IMG/VR virus record: IMGVR_UViG_3300050123_000043
Location: 1-64,000 of that record
Source of the DNA: a virus
Direction: 5' to 3' (one strand)
Length of the DNA: 64,000 nucleotides
Shown here: positions 11,275-21,961 of the stretch, in pieces
Layout of the letters: every line of letters begins with the position of its first letter
How positions within the stretch are numbered: the stretch's first letter is position 1
Translations under genes and position numbers: made by a program
Notes under the pieces: generated by a model
What the model saw: the letters and a program-made list of their open reading frames with translations, nothing else
Told to the model about the DNA's origin: nothing
Database searches by the model: none

Positions 11275-11391
11275 ATGTACGAAGATTTATTAAAGGACCC
11301 TCCCGACACTGAGGAGGACATTCCAGACATTCTTCAACCCCCAGGCCCCGGAGTTCCGGTAGCCGGTCTGTGCTTTGCTGAAAGATTATAA
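11275..11391 (+). CDS. 38-residue acidic, proline-rich peptide
   Basis: MYEDLLKDPPDTEEDIPDILQPPGPGVPVAG... starts 2 bases after the previous stop. Its stop codon (11389-11391) lies inside the first copy of the dispersed palindrome. Unknown; the tight spacing is the main support. Confidence 0.5.
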   Translation: MYEDLLKDPPDTEEDIPDILQPPGPGVPVAGLCFAERL

Positions 11392-11459
11392 CAAAACTCA
11401 GTGATAATTATCATTGGATTTTGTGATAAAAATAAAATTATAACAAAATTTTGTTATAA
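11386..11459. promoter_or_regulatory. Three copies of the 22-bp palindromic operator
   Basis: Copies lie at 11386-11407, 11408-11429 (directly abutting) and 11438-11459. The third is perfect: TTATAACAAAA followed by its reverse complement TTTTGTTATAA. They sit immediately upstream of the TTTGG/TAGGTTTG promoter at 11462-11493, as expected for activator or repressor binding. Confidence 0.75.
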
Positions 11460-11461
11460 AA

Positions 11462-11493
11462 TTTGGTAGATTAAAAAATTCTTCTTAGGTTTG
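11462..11493 (+). promoter_or_regulatory. Promoter TTTGG-N19-TAGGTTTG
   Basis: TTTGG (11462-11466) and TAGGTTTG (11486-11493) match the consensus exactly. The start site is expected around 11499, and the membrane micro-ORF begins at 11512. Confidence 0.75.
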
Positions 11494-11511
11494 TAGTCTA
11501 AATGATTTTTT

Positions 11512-11637
11512 ATGGTAGTAGGTATAATAATTGGTTTCGTTGCTGGCTTTGTATTGGCATTTGGAATCTTTCATAATAACAAAGCTAAAGCTGATGCGCT
11601 TGTTACAACCGTAGAAGCTGAAGCAAAAAAAGTTTAA
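11512..11637 (+). CDS. 41-residue single-pass membrane peptide
   Basis: MVVGIIIGFVAGFVLAFGIFHNNKAKADALVTTVEAEAKKV has a glycine-rich membrane helix followed by a short charged helix. It lies alone between a strong promoter and a terminator, so it is probably expressed. The composition resembles small phage holin- or exclusion-type peptides, but nothing proves either. Confidence 0.65.
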   Translation: MVVGIIIGFVAGFVLAFGIFHNNKAKADALVTTVEAEAKKV

Positions 11638-12364: not shown

Positions 12365-13171
12365 ATGAAACTAAAATTCACAGAAGAAGGGCATTCGTAT
12401 GAGTCAATTCCAGCCGTTTCCTGGACTTCTGTGACTAAACTAGTAGAAAGCTACTGCAATCCTTTTGACGAGAAGGATCAAGCTCTGAGGAGTTCACAGA
12501 ATACGAAATCAAAGTGGTTTGGAATGGACCCAGTGGAGATTATCAAACTCTGGAAGGCTGAAAACCTTCGTTCCACTGATGCCGGAACCTGGGTCCACAA
12601 CAAATGGGAAAAAAATGTTAGCTCTTTAAAGCACAAAGAGTGGGAAGGGAAGAAATTAAAAGTTTTTCCTGGAAAATGGGAAGGAGAAACTAAAATTGCA
12701 CCAGCCCAGGAACTTGAAGAAGGGGTTTACTCTGAACATATTATATATAATGAAAATCTTCAGGTGTGTGGACAGGCTGATATTGTTAATGTTAGGGATG
12801 GTTTTGTAGATATTATTGATTATAAGACTAGTAAGGAGATTGAGGACCACTCTTATGGATTCAAGTATGGAAATGCGAGTATGATGTTGGAACCGGTGAA
12901 CCATTTAGAGGATTGCAACCTTTCTCATTATGTTCTTCAGCTTGGTATCTATATGAGGCTCATCCTGTTAAAGAATCCGGCTCTGAAACCTGGTAAACTG
13001 ATCCTCATTCATGTAAAAATGGATATTAATGAGCTTGATCAATATGGATTTCCTATCCTAAAAAGGACAAAAGAAAACGGATATAAAATTAAAAGAACAA
13101 AAAATTATAATATAAAATACATTGAGAATGAAGTTCGTAGTGTATTAAAAGATCATTATTTAAAATTGTAG
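12365..13171 (+). CDS. PD-(D/E)XK (RecB/Cas4-like) nuclease
   Basis: The ATG at 12365 is preferred over a TTG at 12356 that lies inside the -7 element. The 268-residue protein carries the core in the middle: EHIIYNENLQVCGQADIV, then VDIIDYKTSKEI, giving the GxxD...D-x-DYKTSK catalytic signature of RecB-family exonucleases. Upstream WVHNKWEKN supplies a conserved His. The family degrades DNA ends in phage recombination or host-DNA breakdown; which applies cannot be told. The gene is wedged between tRNAs, and its TAG stop lies inside the 5' end of the next tRNA-like gene. Confidence 0.85.
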   Translation: MKLKFTEEGHSYESIPAVSWTSVTKLVESYCNPFDEKDQALRSSQNTKSKWFGMDPVEIIKLWKAENLRSTDAGTWVHNKWEKNVSSLKHKEWEGKKLKVFPGKWEGETKIAPAQELEEGVYSEHIIYNENLQVCGQADIVNVRDGFVDIIDYKTSKEIEDHSYGFKYGNASMMLEPVNHLEDCNLSHYVLQLGIYMRLILLKNPALKPGKLILIHVKMDINELDQYGFPILKRTKENGYKIKRTKNYNIKYIENEVRSVLKDHYLKL

Positions 13172-13316
13172 GGTGGCGAAATTGGTAGACGCAACCGCTT
13201 GTCTCGCGGTCGTGGATAAGGAAATAGATAGTAGATAGACGGTTGACCAGCAATGAATTAACTTCTTTTGTCTACTGTTGAATCCCCACTTAATGGTTCG
13301 ACTCCATTTTCTACAG
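13167..13316 (+). tRNA. Unusual class II tRNA, anticodon GTC, 81-nt variable region
   Basis: Acceptor TGTAGGG/TTCTACA with G73, a Leu/Ser-type D-arm (GCG...AATTGGTAGA...CGC), anticodon stem ACCGC/GCGGT with loop TTGTCTC, and T-stem AATGG/CCATT with loop TTCGACT are all present. Between anticodon and T arms lie 81 bases (13211-13291), closed by GTGG/CCAC with an inner stem AGTAGAT/GTCTACT. A normal class II variable arm is 11-20 bases. The GTC anticodon would read Asp codons, but the body and G73 look like a seryl or leucyl tRNA. Confidence 0.65.
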
Positions 13317-13400: not shown

Positions 13401-13473
13401 TGCGCCATACGCATTCCGGTAGTGTGCCTGGCTTCCAACCAGGATGAGTCGGTTCGATTCCGACATGACGCAC
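13401..13473 (+). tRNA. tRNA-Gly (TCC)
   Basis: Acceptor TGCGCCA/TGACGCA (one mismatch), anticodon stem CCTGG/CCAGG with loop CTTCCAA, T-stem GTCGG/CCGAC with loop TTCGATT. Its discriminator base directly abuts the permuted tRNA-like gene. Confidence 0.85.
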
Positions 13474-13555
13474 TAAGGGAGAAATGCGAGTTCGATTCTC
13501 GCTCTGTCGGCTTCGGCTGACGGATAGTCCAGTGGCTAAGACGCTCCCGTTTTTT
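13474..13555 (+). tRNA. Circularly permuted tRNA-like gene (3' half before 5' half)
   Basis: In order: anticodon-stem 3' strand GGGAG (13477-13481), variable AAAT, T-arm GCGAG-TTCGATT-CTCGC (13486-13502), acceptor 3' strand TCTGTCG (13503-13509), linker GC-TTCG-GC, acceptor 5' strand TGACGGA (13518-13524), TA, D-arm GTC...AGTGGCTAA...GAC (13527-13542), G26, anticodon-stem 5' strand CTCCC (13544-13548), then GTTTTTT. The two acceptor strands plus linker make a 9-bp stem capped by a UUCG tetraloop, and CTCCC/GGGAG pair perfectly. Every tRNA element is present but the gene is opened in the anticodon loop. Flanked without gaps by tRNA-Gly and tRNA-Glu. Confidence 0.7.
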
Positions 13556-13626
13556 GACGGGTTCTTATATTGGTAGTAATCTTGGCCTTCACCCAGGAAA
13601 AGACAGTTCGATTCTGTCACTCGTTA
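13556..13626 (+). tRNA. tRNA-Glu (TTC)
   Basis: Acceptor GACGGGT/ACTCGTT, anticodon stem CTTGG/CCAGG with loop CCTTCAC (C at 33 instead of U), T-stem GACAG/CTGTC with loop TTCGATT. The 5' end can also pair with CCCGT of the preceding gene. Confidence 0.75.
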
Positions 13627-13632
13627 CACTTT

Positions 13633-13707
13633 CGGAGATCGGTCCGGCCAGGAACGGATGTCGCCTTGTCACGGCGAAGACCGTGGGTTCAAATCCCACA
13701 TTTCCGG
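13633..13707 (+). tRNA. tRNA-Asp (GTC)
   Basis: Acceptor CGGAGAT/ATTTCCG with G73, D-stem GTCC/GGAT, anticodon stem TCGCC/GGCGA with loop TTGTCAC, T-stem GTGGG/CCCAC. A fully ordinary Asp tRNA, so the GTC class II gene upstream is not needed to decode Asp. Confidence 0.85.
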
Positions 13708-13721
13708 CAATCCAACTCTCA

Positions 13722-13797
13722 CGCCATAATTTTATGGCGCACCAGGAGAATGAATGAAGTACGACATAGGCCCCCGTAGGTCATTCACGGTGTTTTT
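13722..13797 (+). terminator. Hairpin followed by terminator of the first tRNA block
   Basis: CGCCATAA/TTATGGCG (13722-13739) is followed by a longer stem: CACC/GGTG, GAATGA/TCATTC and TACG/CGTA (13740-13792), then TTTTT. It probably ends the transcript that starts upstream of the class II tRNA. Confidence 0.6.
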
Positions 13798-13833
13798 AAC
13801 AATTTCACAAGGTTACGAAAAATTGTTTTCTAT

Positions 13834-14056: not shown

Positions 14057-14110
14057 TGTTCATATTTTTTCTCTGTTCACGGAAACGCGAACACAGAGAA
14101 AATGTGAACA
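14057..14110 (+). other. Long inter-tRNA hairpin
   Basis: TGTTCA/TGAACA at the base continues through a nearly complementary TCTCTG/CAGAGA-containing stem to a loop around ACGGAAACGC, about 20 pairs in total. Between tRNA-Ile(GAT) and tRNA-Ala. RNase III-type substrate by shape. Confidence 0.7.
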
Positions 14111-14114
14111 ACCT

Positions 14115-14188
14115 GGGGCCGCATGTTCCGTAGTGGCGAGTCTCACTTGCAATGAGACTGTGATAGGGTGCAACTCCCTTGGGTTCCA
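14115..14188 (+). tRNA. tRNA-Ala (TGC)
   Basis: Acceptor GGGGCCG/GGGTTCC (G-U pairs, last pair mismatched), anticodon stem TCTCA/TGAGA with loop CTTGCAA, T-loop TGCAACT (unusual for TTCRANY). Confidence 0.75.
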
Positions 14189-14205
14189 CTTATTTTTTTC
14201 CCAAA

Positions 14206-18262: not shown

Positions 18263-18342
18263 ACCTTCGTGACTTATACGAAATGGCACAGTTACCGGTC
18301 TTAGAAACCGGGTCCTTGTGGGTTCGACTCCCACCGAAGGTA
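18263..18342 (+). tRNA. tRNA-Leu (TAG), short variable loop
   Basis: Acceptor ACCTTCG/CGAAGGT, enlarged D-arm (about 23 bases), anticodon stem CCGGT/ACCGG with loop CTTAGAA, 6-base variable loop, T-stem GTGGG/CCCAC. Confidence 0.82.
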
Positions 18343-18379
18343 CAATGTTTCCCTTATTAATGAGGTAAACAATTTATAA

Positions 18380-18459
18380 CCCTCTGTGGCTTATAGAAAT
18401 AGGTACACTTAACCGACTTAAAATCGGAGCTTGTCATGGTTCGAATCCATGCAGGGGGA
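18380..18459 (+). tRNA. tRNA-Leu (TAA), short variable loop
   Basis: Acceptor CCCTCTG/CAGGGGG, enlarged D-arm like the neighbouring Leu gene, anticodon loop CTTAAAA on stem CCGA/TCGG, about 6-base variable loop, T-stem CATGG/CCATG. Confidence 0.8.
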
Positions 18460-18463
18460 CATA

Positions 18464-18552
18464 CGGAAGGCCCCAGTTGACTGAGGTACACGGTCCTGAA
18501 CACCGCTAGGAGGCTAATACCCTTGTAAGAGTTGGACTCTCTTGCTTTCCGC
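18464..18552 (+). tRNA. tRNA-Ser (TGA)
   Basis: Acceptor CGGAAGG/CTTTCCG, anticodon loop CCTGAAC on stem CGGT/ACCG, a roughly 20-base class II variable arm containing AGG...CCT, T-stem AAGAG/CTCTT. Confidence 0.8.
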
Positions 18553-18636
18553 TTTATATCTTTTAACATATAAAATCAGTAATATATTACCGATTATATC
18601 TAATAACGTATAATAAGGTAGAATATTTTGCAACAA

Positions 18637-20226: not shown

Positions 20227-20230
20227 AATT

Positions 20231-20299
20231 ACGTGCCAGGCTAAGGCAGCCAAGCAAACTCCAAATCTGTAGGAGATAGTTCGATTCTATCGGTGCGTG
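20231..20299 (+). tRNA. tRNA-Trp (CCA)
   Basis: Acceptor ACGTGCC/GGTGCGT, D-stem GGC/GCC, anticodon loop CTCCAAA on a weak stem, T-stem GATAG/CTATC with loop TTCGATT. Confidence 0.78.
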
Positions 20300-20838: not shown

Positions 20839-20869
20839 TTGGTTTTATAATAAAAAACTGTTACATTTG
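20839..20869 (+). promoter_or_regulatory. Promoter TTGG-N20-TACATTTG
   Basis: TTGG (20839-20842) and TACATTTG (20862-20869); the ATG at 20875 is 5 bases past the -7 element, so a leaderless message is predicted. Confidence 0.72.
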
Positions 20870-20874
20870 CAAGT

Positions 20875-21222
20875 ATGAGAGCGTTGAAGATAGAAAAAAA
20901 GACTGATTCGAAAACTCAACAGATAAAGCTTGTATTATCAATCATTTGTCTATTAAACAATATTAATCTCTCAGAAACAGACTATATAGTTCTTGCTTTT
21001 TTTATTCAATATAAAATGAGTCACAAAACCGATGATTTGATAATAAAGAGTGGGGTTGTAAAGAACTTGGATGTTTTAAGGAATGTTAAAACCAGGTTAT
21101 GTAAGAAGGGATTTTTAAAAAGAGATCTTAAAGAATACAAAACCTATGATTTAAACATGAGTGCGGGGGAGTTCAATTGGGAAGACAATGATATTCGATT
21201 AATTATAAAACTCAATAATTGA
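20875..21222 (+). CDS. Hypothetical winged-helix-like protein, 115 residues
   Basis: A basic, helical protein: KLVLSIICLLNNINLSETDYIVLAFFIQYKMSHKTDDLIIKSGVVKNLDVLRNVKTRLCKKGFLKRD reads like a winged-helix DNA-binding fold with recognition helix NLDVLRNVKTRLCKKG and a wing. Regulatory role likely but unproven. It overlaps the next gene and opens the unit that runs toward the terminase. Confidence 0.65.
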   Translation: MRALKIEKKTDSKTQQIKLVLSIICLLNNINLSETDYIVLAFFIQYKMSHKTDDLIIKSGVVKNLDVLRNVKTRLCKKGFLKRDLKEYKTYDLNMSAGEFNWEDNDIRLIIKLNN

Positions 21223-21572
21223 AAAATATTGACTATATAATTTTGAAGACCTCCAGGGACATGGATATTCCTAAAGAAAAGGTTAAGGTAATAGTGGATG
21301 CCTATTGGGACGGAGTGTATAAAAAACTTTTAAATTTAGATTCTACAACTGTTTTTATAAGGAATGTGGGGCTGATAACAATAAGTAAATTTAAATTAAG
21401 AAAGTTTATTTATAAATTTATTGATAAAATAAGATTTTTAAATAAAGGAGATAATTATTCTGAACAACAAAAACAAAAACTCAATCCTCTTTATATTAAA
21501 AAATTGAGGAAGGCTCTTTTTCAAAGAAATATTATTGCTAAAGACTACGCTAAAAAATTTGGAAACACATGA
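21219..21572 (+). CDS. HU/IHF-like DNA-binding protein
   Basis: The TTG at 21219 overlaps the previous stop (TTGA). A later ATG at 21261 is possible but would remove the first helix. The 117-residue product follows the HU/IHF plan: two N-terminal helices (DMDIPKEKVKVIVDAYWDGVYKKLLNL), then a strand and turn TTVFIRNVGLITISKFKLRKFI in place of the usual G-F/L-G-xF beta-arm start. crAss-like phages carry such genes near their structural modules. It would bend or compact DNA. Confidence 0.65.
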   Translation: MKNIDYIILKTSRDMDIPKEKVKVIVDAYWDGVYKKLLNLDSTTVFIRNVGLITISKFKLRKFIYKFIDKIRFLNKGDNYSEQQKQKLNPLYIKKLRKALFQRNIIAKDYAKKFGNT

Positions 21573-21961
21573 GTTTAAGAAAAACTTTTGGTGAGTATTT
21601 GGAAATGGTGAAGAATGGTTTTAAAAACAAAGATAAGATCATTGAAGCAATGCAGGTTTCTGCTATGATAAAGAATGGTCTGGTAATTGGGGATGGATTG
21701 GAAGTTACTAATGAGGCTATTGCTGAGATACTTAAAAGGATAGATATTTGTGCTGAGTGTCCTTTCAATAGTAGACATGCAAAGAAAGGATCTTACACAT
21801 CCACTTTACCTTTTGAACATTGTACTCTTTGTAAATGCAGGATAGGATATGACGATAGCAAGGAATATTGTTTGAGTTGTAATTGTGGAGCCGAAGCCTG
21901 GAATGAAATGAATCCTGATATGGAACCGATGGAAGTGAAATGGACTGCATTTAAAAATTAA
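21569..21961 (+). CDS. Zinc-binding CxxC protein conserved near crAss-like terminases
   Basis: 130 residues with a helical N-terminus (GEYLEMVKNGFKNKDKIIEAMQVSAMI) and a Cys-rich C-terminal half: ICAECPFNSRHA, FEHCTLCKCRIGYD, YCLSCNCGAEAW. At least eight Cys and one His could bind two zinc ions. I recall similar proteins upstream of terminase genes in crAss-like phages, but cannot check. Overlaps the previous gene by 4 bases. Confidence 0.65.
   Translation: MSLRKTFGEYLEMVKNGFKNKDKIIEAMQVSAMIKNGLVIGDGLEVTNEAIAEILKRIDICAECPFNSRHAKKGSYTSTLPFEHCTLCKCRIGYDDSKEYCLSCNCGAEAWNEMNPDMEPMEVKWTAFKN

Follow-up and report, generated by a model that had tools for sequence, protein, structure and literature searches.

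The window, the whole stretch of 64,000 nucleotides (64 kb) that we analysed, belongs to a virus record of 97,828 bases (97.8 kb). The large terminase of this phage is 41% identical to that of Leptolyngbya phage Lbo-JY46 (L005), its next-best matches are Crassvirales, and the genome encodes crAss ring proteins. The window phage is thus crAss-like. It carries a large tRNA array, in which the genes for tRNA-Gly and tRNA-Glu are separated by a tRNA-like unit whose 3' half comes first and whose 5' half follows. The features of this region are:

13402..13472, plus strand: tRNA-Gly(TCC), upstream neighbour, with discriminator A13472
13473..13555, plus strand: whole permuted tRNA-like unit, 83 nt
13473-76, plus strand: CTAA, unit start
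13477..13481, plus strand: GGGAG, 3' strand of the anticodon (closing) stem, pairing 5/5 with 13544-13548
13482-85, plus strand: AAAT
13486..13502, plus strand: T-arm GCGAG-TTCGATT-CTCGC, T-loop invariants present
13503..13509, plus strand: TCTGTCG, acceptor 3' strand, pairing 7/7 with 13518-13524
13510..13517, plus strand: linker GC-TTCG-GC
13518..13524, plus strand: TGACGGA, acceptor 5' strand
13525-26, plus strand: TA, equivalent to U8-A9
13527-42, plus strand: D-arm GTCC-AGTGGCTA-AGAC, with A14, G18, G19 and A21 in place
13543, plus strand: G
13544..13548, plus strand: CTCCC, 5' strand of the anticodon (closing) stem
13549-55, plus strand: GTTTTTT, unit end
13556..13626, plus strand: tRNA-Glu(TTC), downstream neighbour, first base 13556

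Two of the seven acceptor pairs are G-U; the T-stem pairs 5/5 and the D-stem 3/4. The tRNA invariants (U8, A14, G18, G19, A21 and the T-loop set) are intact across both halves. A sequence-only reading of this locus had described permuted halves, and every element that it named is present, in a unit running from 13473 to 13555. It was also right about the perfect pairing of CTCCC with GGGAG and about the capped acceptor arm, to which GC-UUCG-GC adds two base pairs and a UUCG tetraloop. Its claim that the unit is bounded exactly by tRNA-Gly and tRNA-Glu processing sites agrees closely with the positions of the discriminator and of the first tRNA-Glu base.

The unit has a minimum free energy of about -31 to -32 kcal/mol (z -2.3 to -2.9), and the capped acceptor arm by itself gives a z of -5.3. 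Chance controls matter at such a locus, because one ordinary tandem tRNA junction inside the window pairs 6/7 + 4/5 by chance, an observation in favour of reading the unit as unrelated tRNA fragments lying side by side. A covariance search with a permuted model, which the earlier reading had proposed as a check, did match the unit, but our model (R1) scored ordinary tandem tRNA pairs just as strongly. For this reason we adopted filtering by ARAGORN genes and a mismatched-halves test, in which 3' and 5' halves from 234 distinct regular array tRNAs of related phages were brought together in 52,068 combinations. The pairing score of the window unit is reached by 1.9e-5 of these mismatched combinations, and we conclude that its halves are cognate. 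For units in two related phages, L010 and L001, the corresponding values are 2.7e-4 and 0.8%. The frequencies for the window and L010 refute chance juxtaposition, to which we now assign next to no probability. Across 3.25 Mb of related phage DNA outside regular tRNAs, comparable units occur only in the window, in L010 and, more weakly, in L001. The window and L010 units (scan scores 14.65 and 13.8) rank as the top two, above all tandem junctions, the best ordinary tandem tRNA junction scoring 11.6.

L001 is a 112-kb record that has the same tRNA order and a terminase 98% identical to that of the window phage. L010 is a distant relative (terminase 38% identical), and its unit is independent of the window unit. 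The two units are placed as follows:

L001 11330-11415, Gly-Glu gap: T-arm then D-arm, degenerate
L010 7432-7510, between tRNA-His and tRNA-Arg: acceptor 6/7, anticodon stem 5/5

The L001 block from the end of tRNA-Gly to the next tRNA-Ile is a different allele from that of the window. Where the window has the unit, tRNA-Glu and tRNA-Asp (13474-13825), L001 has a divergent version swapped in (11330-11617), the two phages being about 95% identical outside this block. The ends of the L001 unit pair 5/5 as GGACA/TGTCC, compared with GGGAG/CTCCC in the window, so that three pairs differ on both sides, and the pairing of the T-arm and D-arm is kept despite many sequence differences. The acceptor strands, in contrast, pair at just 4/7, and this region forms a hairpin no better than shuffled sequence does. 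When the halves are rejoined, the anticodon loops measure 11 nt including U6 (window), 6 nt (L001) and 7-9 nt (L010), with no anticodon in common; at 11 nt, the anticodon of the window unit is undefined unless 4 nt are trimmed.

With the same scan, the arrays of L005, L006, L009, L013, L079 and L098 yielded no permuted unit. An exact-pattern search for the unit among viral contigs gave no match, a search for the 3' end of tRNA-Gly matched L001 only, and when phages were searched with the unit by distant BLAST, the matches went no further than the T-arm. The only known cases are two close fits (window and L010) and one degenerate one (L001).

These arrays have other features as well. ARAGORN missed probable Ala, two Leu, Ser(TGA) and Trp tRNAs at window 14107-14190, 18283-18460, 18490-18570 and 20230-20290. 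A class-II (Leu/Ser-like) tRNA with an unusual anticodon loop, TTGTCTC, which would read GUC, is conserved (window 13167-13316; L001 10803-10952; L006 659-810; the L010 record (L094), minus strand; and possibly L098 6185-6280). In most copies the variable arm carries an insert of about 60 nt, and in the window the preceding PD-(D/E)XK gene has its stop codon within the acceptor stem of this tRNA.

The arrays furthermore hold tRNA debris and scrambled genes, two examples of which are:

L005 (Lbo-JY46) 20840-21832, minus strand: tRNA-Glu gene broken up by an intervening homing endonuclease gene and another, different tRNA-Glu
L006 1767-1865: tRNA debris, a pair of orphan T-arms lying between tRNA-Asp and tRNA-Met

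We considered whether the Lbo-JY46 gene might be a split version of the tRNA represented by the unit, and rejected it: its halves are those of the interrupted tRNA-Glu (acceptor GTCCCTG/CAGGGAT), of which L009 has an intact copy. Because of such debris, it stays plausible, if on the whole unlikely, that the unit is a relic. A tandem tRNA duplication or a homing-endonuclease rearrangement would have lost its outer halves, recently enough for the remaining halves still to match, and the L001 copy would be decaying. The state of the L001 acceptor arm is consistent with this account, as is the resemblance of the loop pieces to ordinary intergenic spacers. Several facts weigh against it, however. 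The window and L010 units are independent of each other, and each is a close fit between its neighbouring tRNA genes, with pairing and invariants nearly complete. The L001 unit still pairs its T, D and anticodon stems after many differences, three of them double-sided. The sequence gave no support for a homing-endonuclease or intron origin of the unit itself.

A different proposal is that the unit is a genuine circularly permuted tRNA gene. Processing of the flanking tRNAs would leave the anticodon loop open, with a 5'-phosphate and a 3'-OH; the phage RNA ligase would join these ends into a circle, and RNase P and exonucleases would excise the UUCG linker (loss of GCUUCGGC) before CCA addition. 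The commonest class of permuted tRNA genes has its break in the anticodon loop, with linkers of 1-74 nt (PMC3978253), and the unit fits this class. The search of the genome for RNA ligase and polynucleotide kinase that the earlier reading had called for turned up both, together with a metallophosphoesterase, in three neighbouring genes:

Genome 88,881-91,484 (L003 4881-7484, minus strand): ATP-dependent RNA ligase (motif KLHGTS), Pnkp-like kinase and metallophosphoesterase

The trio resembles bacterial Pnkp split into parts. The L001 record encodes an RNA ligase and a kinase as well; a possible stop codon within the L001 kinase gene was dismissed as a read-through beyond the natural stop. With these three genes next to one another, the window phage resembles known systems of phage tRNA repair (T4 Pnkp/Rnl1 type; bacterial Pnkp). 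It differs from them in that the tie between repair genes and unit is putative, and in that neither RNA ligase nor RtcB was detected in the genome of L010, which does carry a unit.

Like the permuted tRNA genes of algae and Thermofilum, the unit places the 3' half before the 5' half, with a break in the anticodon loop, a short acceptor linker and two cognate stems. Unlike them, it has an 11-nt loop with an undefined anticodon, its linker is a stable UUCG cap, its ends would be generated as the tRNAs on either side are processed and be sealed by a phage ligase, and the phage has a bacterial host, which is not known to have a splicing endonuclease. When the rejoined sequences were given to ARAGORN, the window unit after trimming was called tRNA-Lys or tRNA-Arg, and the L010 unit was called tRNA-Lys(CTT) with an untrimmed 7-nt loop. 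Trimming could give the window unit any of several 7-nt loops, and the Lys-type loop suggested by the earlier reading depends on the removal of 4 nt.

The absence of a common anticodon or loop length, the 4/7 acceptor of L001, the lack of a detected ligase in L010, the little room that the GC-UUCG-GC cap gives RNase P, and the tRNA-Lys and tRNA-Arg(TCT) genes already present in the window array all count against a permuted tRNA gene, and we judge this explanation to be rather improbable. The fuller claim is slightly less probable still: a bacterial virus would have a working, circularly permuted tRNA gene, with ends produced through processing of the neighbouring tRNAs and sealed by the phage ligase, and with no splicing endonuclease. 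In the open literature, which excludes most subscription journals, we found no report of permuted tRNA genes in phages. If the unit is expressed and the claim is true, it would be the first case of a permuted tRNA gene that matures with no splicing endonuclease.

The earlier reading had also named no permuted tRNA gene as established in bacteria or their phages, and the novelty that this implies for the layout holds only in part. A pattern scan of bacterial genomes (T-loop, UUCG, D-arm) recovered stand-alone 7/7 + 5/5 modules in Streptomyces, a cyanobacterium and others. The Streptomyces module that we tested is YrlA, a bacterial Y RNA (RF02553, 38 bits), and the reading frame that follows it resembles, as judged by eye, the Ro60 protein. 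A review describes YrlA RNAs as having two parts, a basal stem to which the Ro60 orthologue is tethered and a tRNA-like domain that looks like the D, T and acceptor arms (PMC8394870), and the structure of the tRNA-like module is available (PDB 6CU1, cited in PMC8394870). YrlA-type modules occur in many bacteria and phages. In mycobacteriophage Phabba such an RNA fills the gap between tRNA-Val and tRNA-Glu in a tRNA array, and in phage Myrna YrlA likewise lies inside the array between neighbouring tRNA genes. The permuted tRNA layout is therefore not new to bacteria or phages. We also noticed that Y RNAs of phages often lack annotation or coincide in part with features that bear the label tRNA-Asp, tRNA-Thr or tRNA-Arg (L295 3953-4095, Phabba; L296, Myrna; L299; L303).

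Could the unit be a true Y RNA, partnered with a phage or host Ro60? Its order of T-arm, capped acceptor hairpin, UA, D-arm and closing stem is that of YrlA, and RF02553 gives local matches of 18.2 bits (window unit) and 23.5 bits. These scores lie far below the gathering threshold of 69, and although that threshold alone is strict, given that the genuine phage and bacterial YrlA RNAs examined here score 38-41 bits, an ordinary tandem tRNA pair reaches 31.7 bits, above both scores. The flanks of the unit are tRNA genes and do not form a Ro60-binding basal stem: flank-duplex z values are -0.45 (window), -0.57 (L001) and +0.47 (L010), compared with -2.4 to -6.2 for most bacterial YrlA, in a test that has little force for Phabba and for two of the bacterial loci. 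Moreover, a Ro60/TROVE (PF05731) gene is absent from the 97.8-kb record, which may be incomplete, and from its relatives, with positive controls detected, whereas 10 of the 11 sampled phages with YrlA modules have one. Taken together, the missing stem, the missing gene and the low Rfam scores indicate that the unit is not a member of YrlA, and a functional Y RNA is largely refuted and very improbable. The closing stem of the unit is a full 5-bp anticodon stem, and the D-arms of the units are unlike the conserved GUAGCUCA..GGUAGAGC of YrlA, which leaves descent from YrlA unsupported. What the unit and YrlA have in common is their architecture.

We tentatively prefer to read the unit as a circularly permuted tRNA mimic that stands alone, resembles the YrlA effector module without its Ro60 stem, is released from the array and engages tRNA-handling enzymes. 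It would be transcribed as part of the phage tRNA array and, judging from the spacing, freed as an RNA of about 80 nt by tRNase Z after tRNA-Gly and RNase P before tRNA-Glu. The chemistry of these two cleavages leaves a 5'-phosphate and a 3'-hydroxyl on the released RNA. According to the computed fold, this RNA would present the D, T and anticodon-stem arms of a tRNA, with a permanently capped acceptor and no anticodon loop. A capped acceptor and an absent anticodon loop would make it a non-translating tRNA look-alike, which would most likely engage tRNA-handling enzymes, perhaps acting as a decoy towards an anticodon nuclease or another tRNA-binding factor alongside the phage RNA-repair genes.

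A number of observations favour such a mimic. First, the two halves are cognate, the invariants are intact, and the acceptor arm is strongly capped as in YrlA modules. Second, Phabba and Myrna provide precedents for YrlA between the tRNA genes of an array. Third, the three units conserve neither a 7-nt loop nor a common anticodon. Fourth, the L001 unit keeps its arms and yet loses its acceptor pairing, a loss that a decoding tRNA could not afford; against the mimic, the broken acceptor arm fits decay too. A decoy or structured RNA, which the earlier reading had mentioned as an alternative, is at least as likely as a decoding tRNA. One publication proposes that the tRNA-like domain of YrlA competitively inhibits an anticodon nuclease (PMC7790460), and another presents TROVE with a tRNA-like partner, in jumbo phages, as a platform for RNA repair (PMC7824862). 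Since the unit has neither the Ro60-binding stem nor a Ro60 gene, the known function of Y RNAs is not directly applicable to it.

Permuted modules within phage tRNA arrays are skipped by tRNA finders. If the unit is expressed, a tRNA mimic that works free of Ro60 would reveal a role of the YrlA-type module in its own right, in phage counter-defence.
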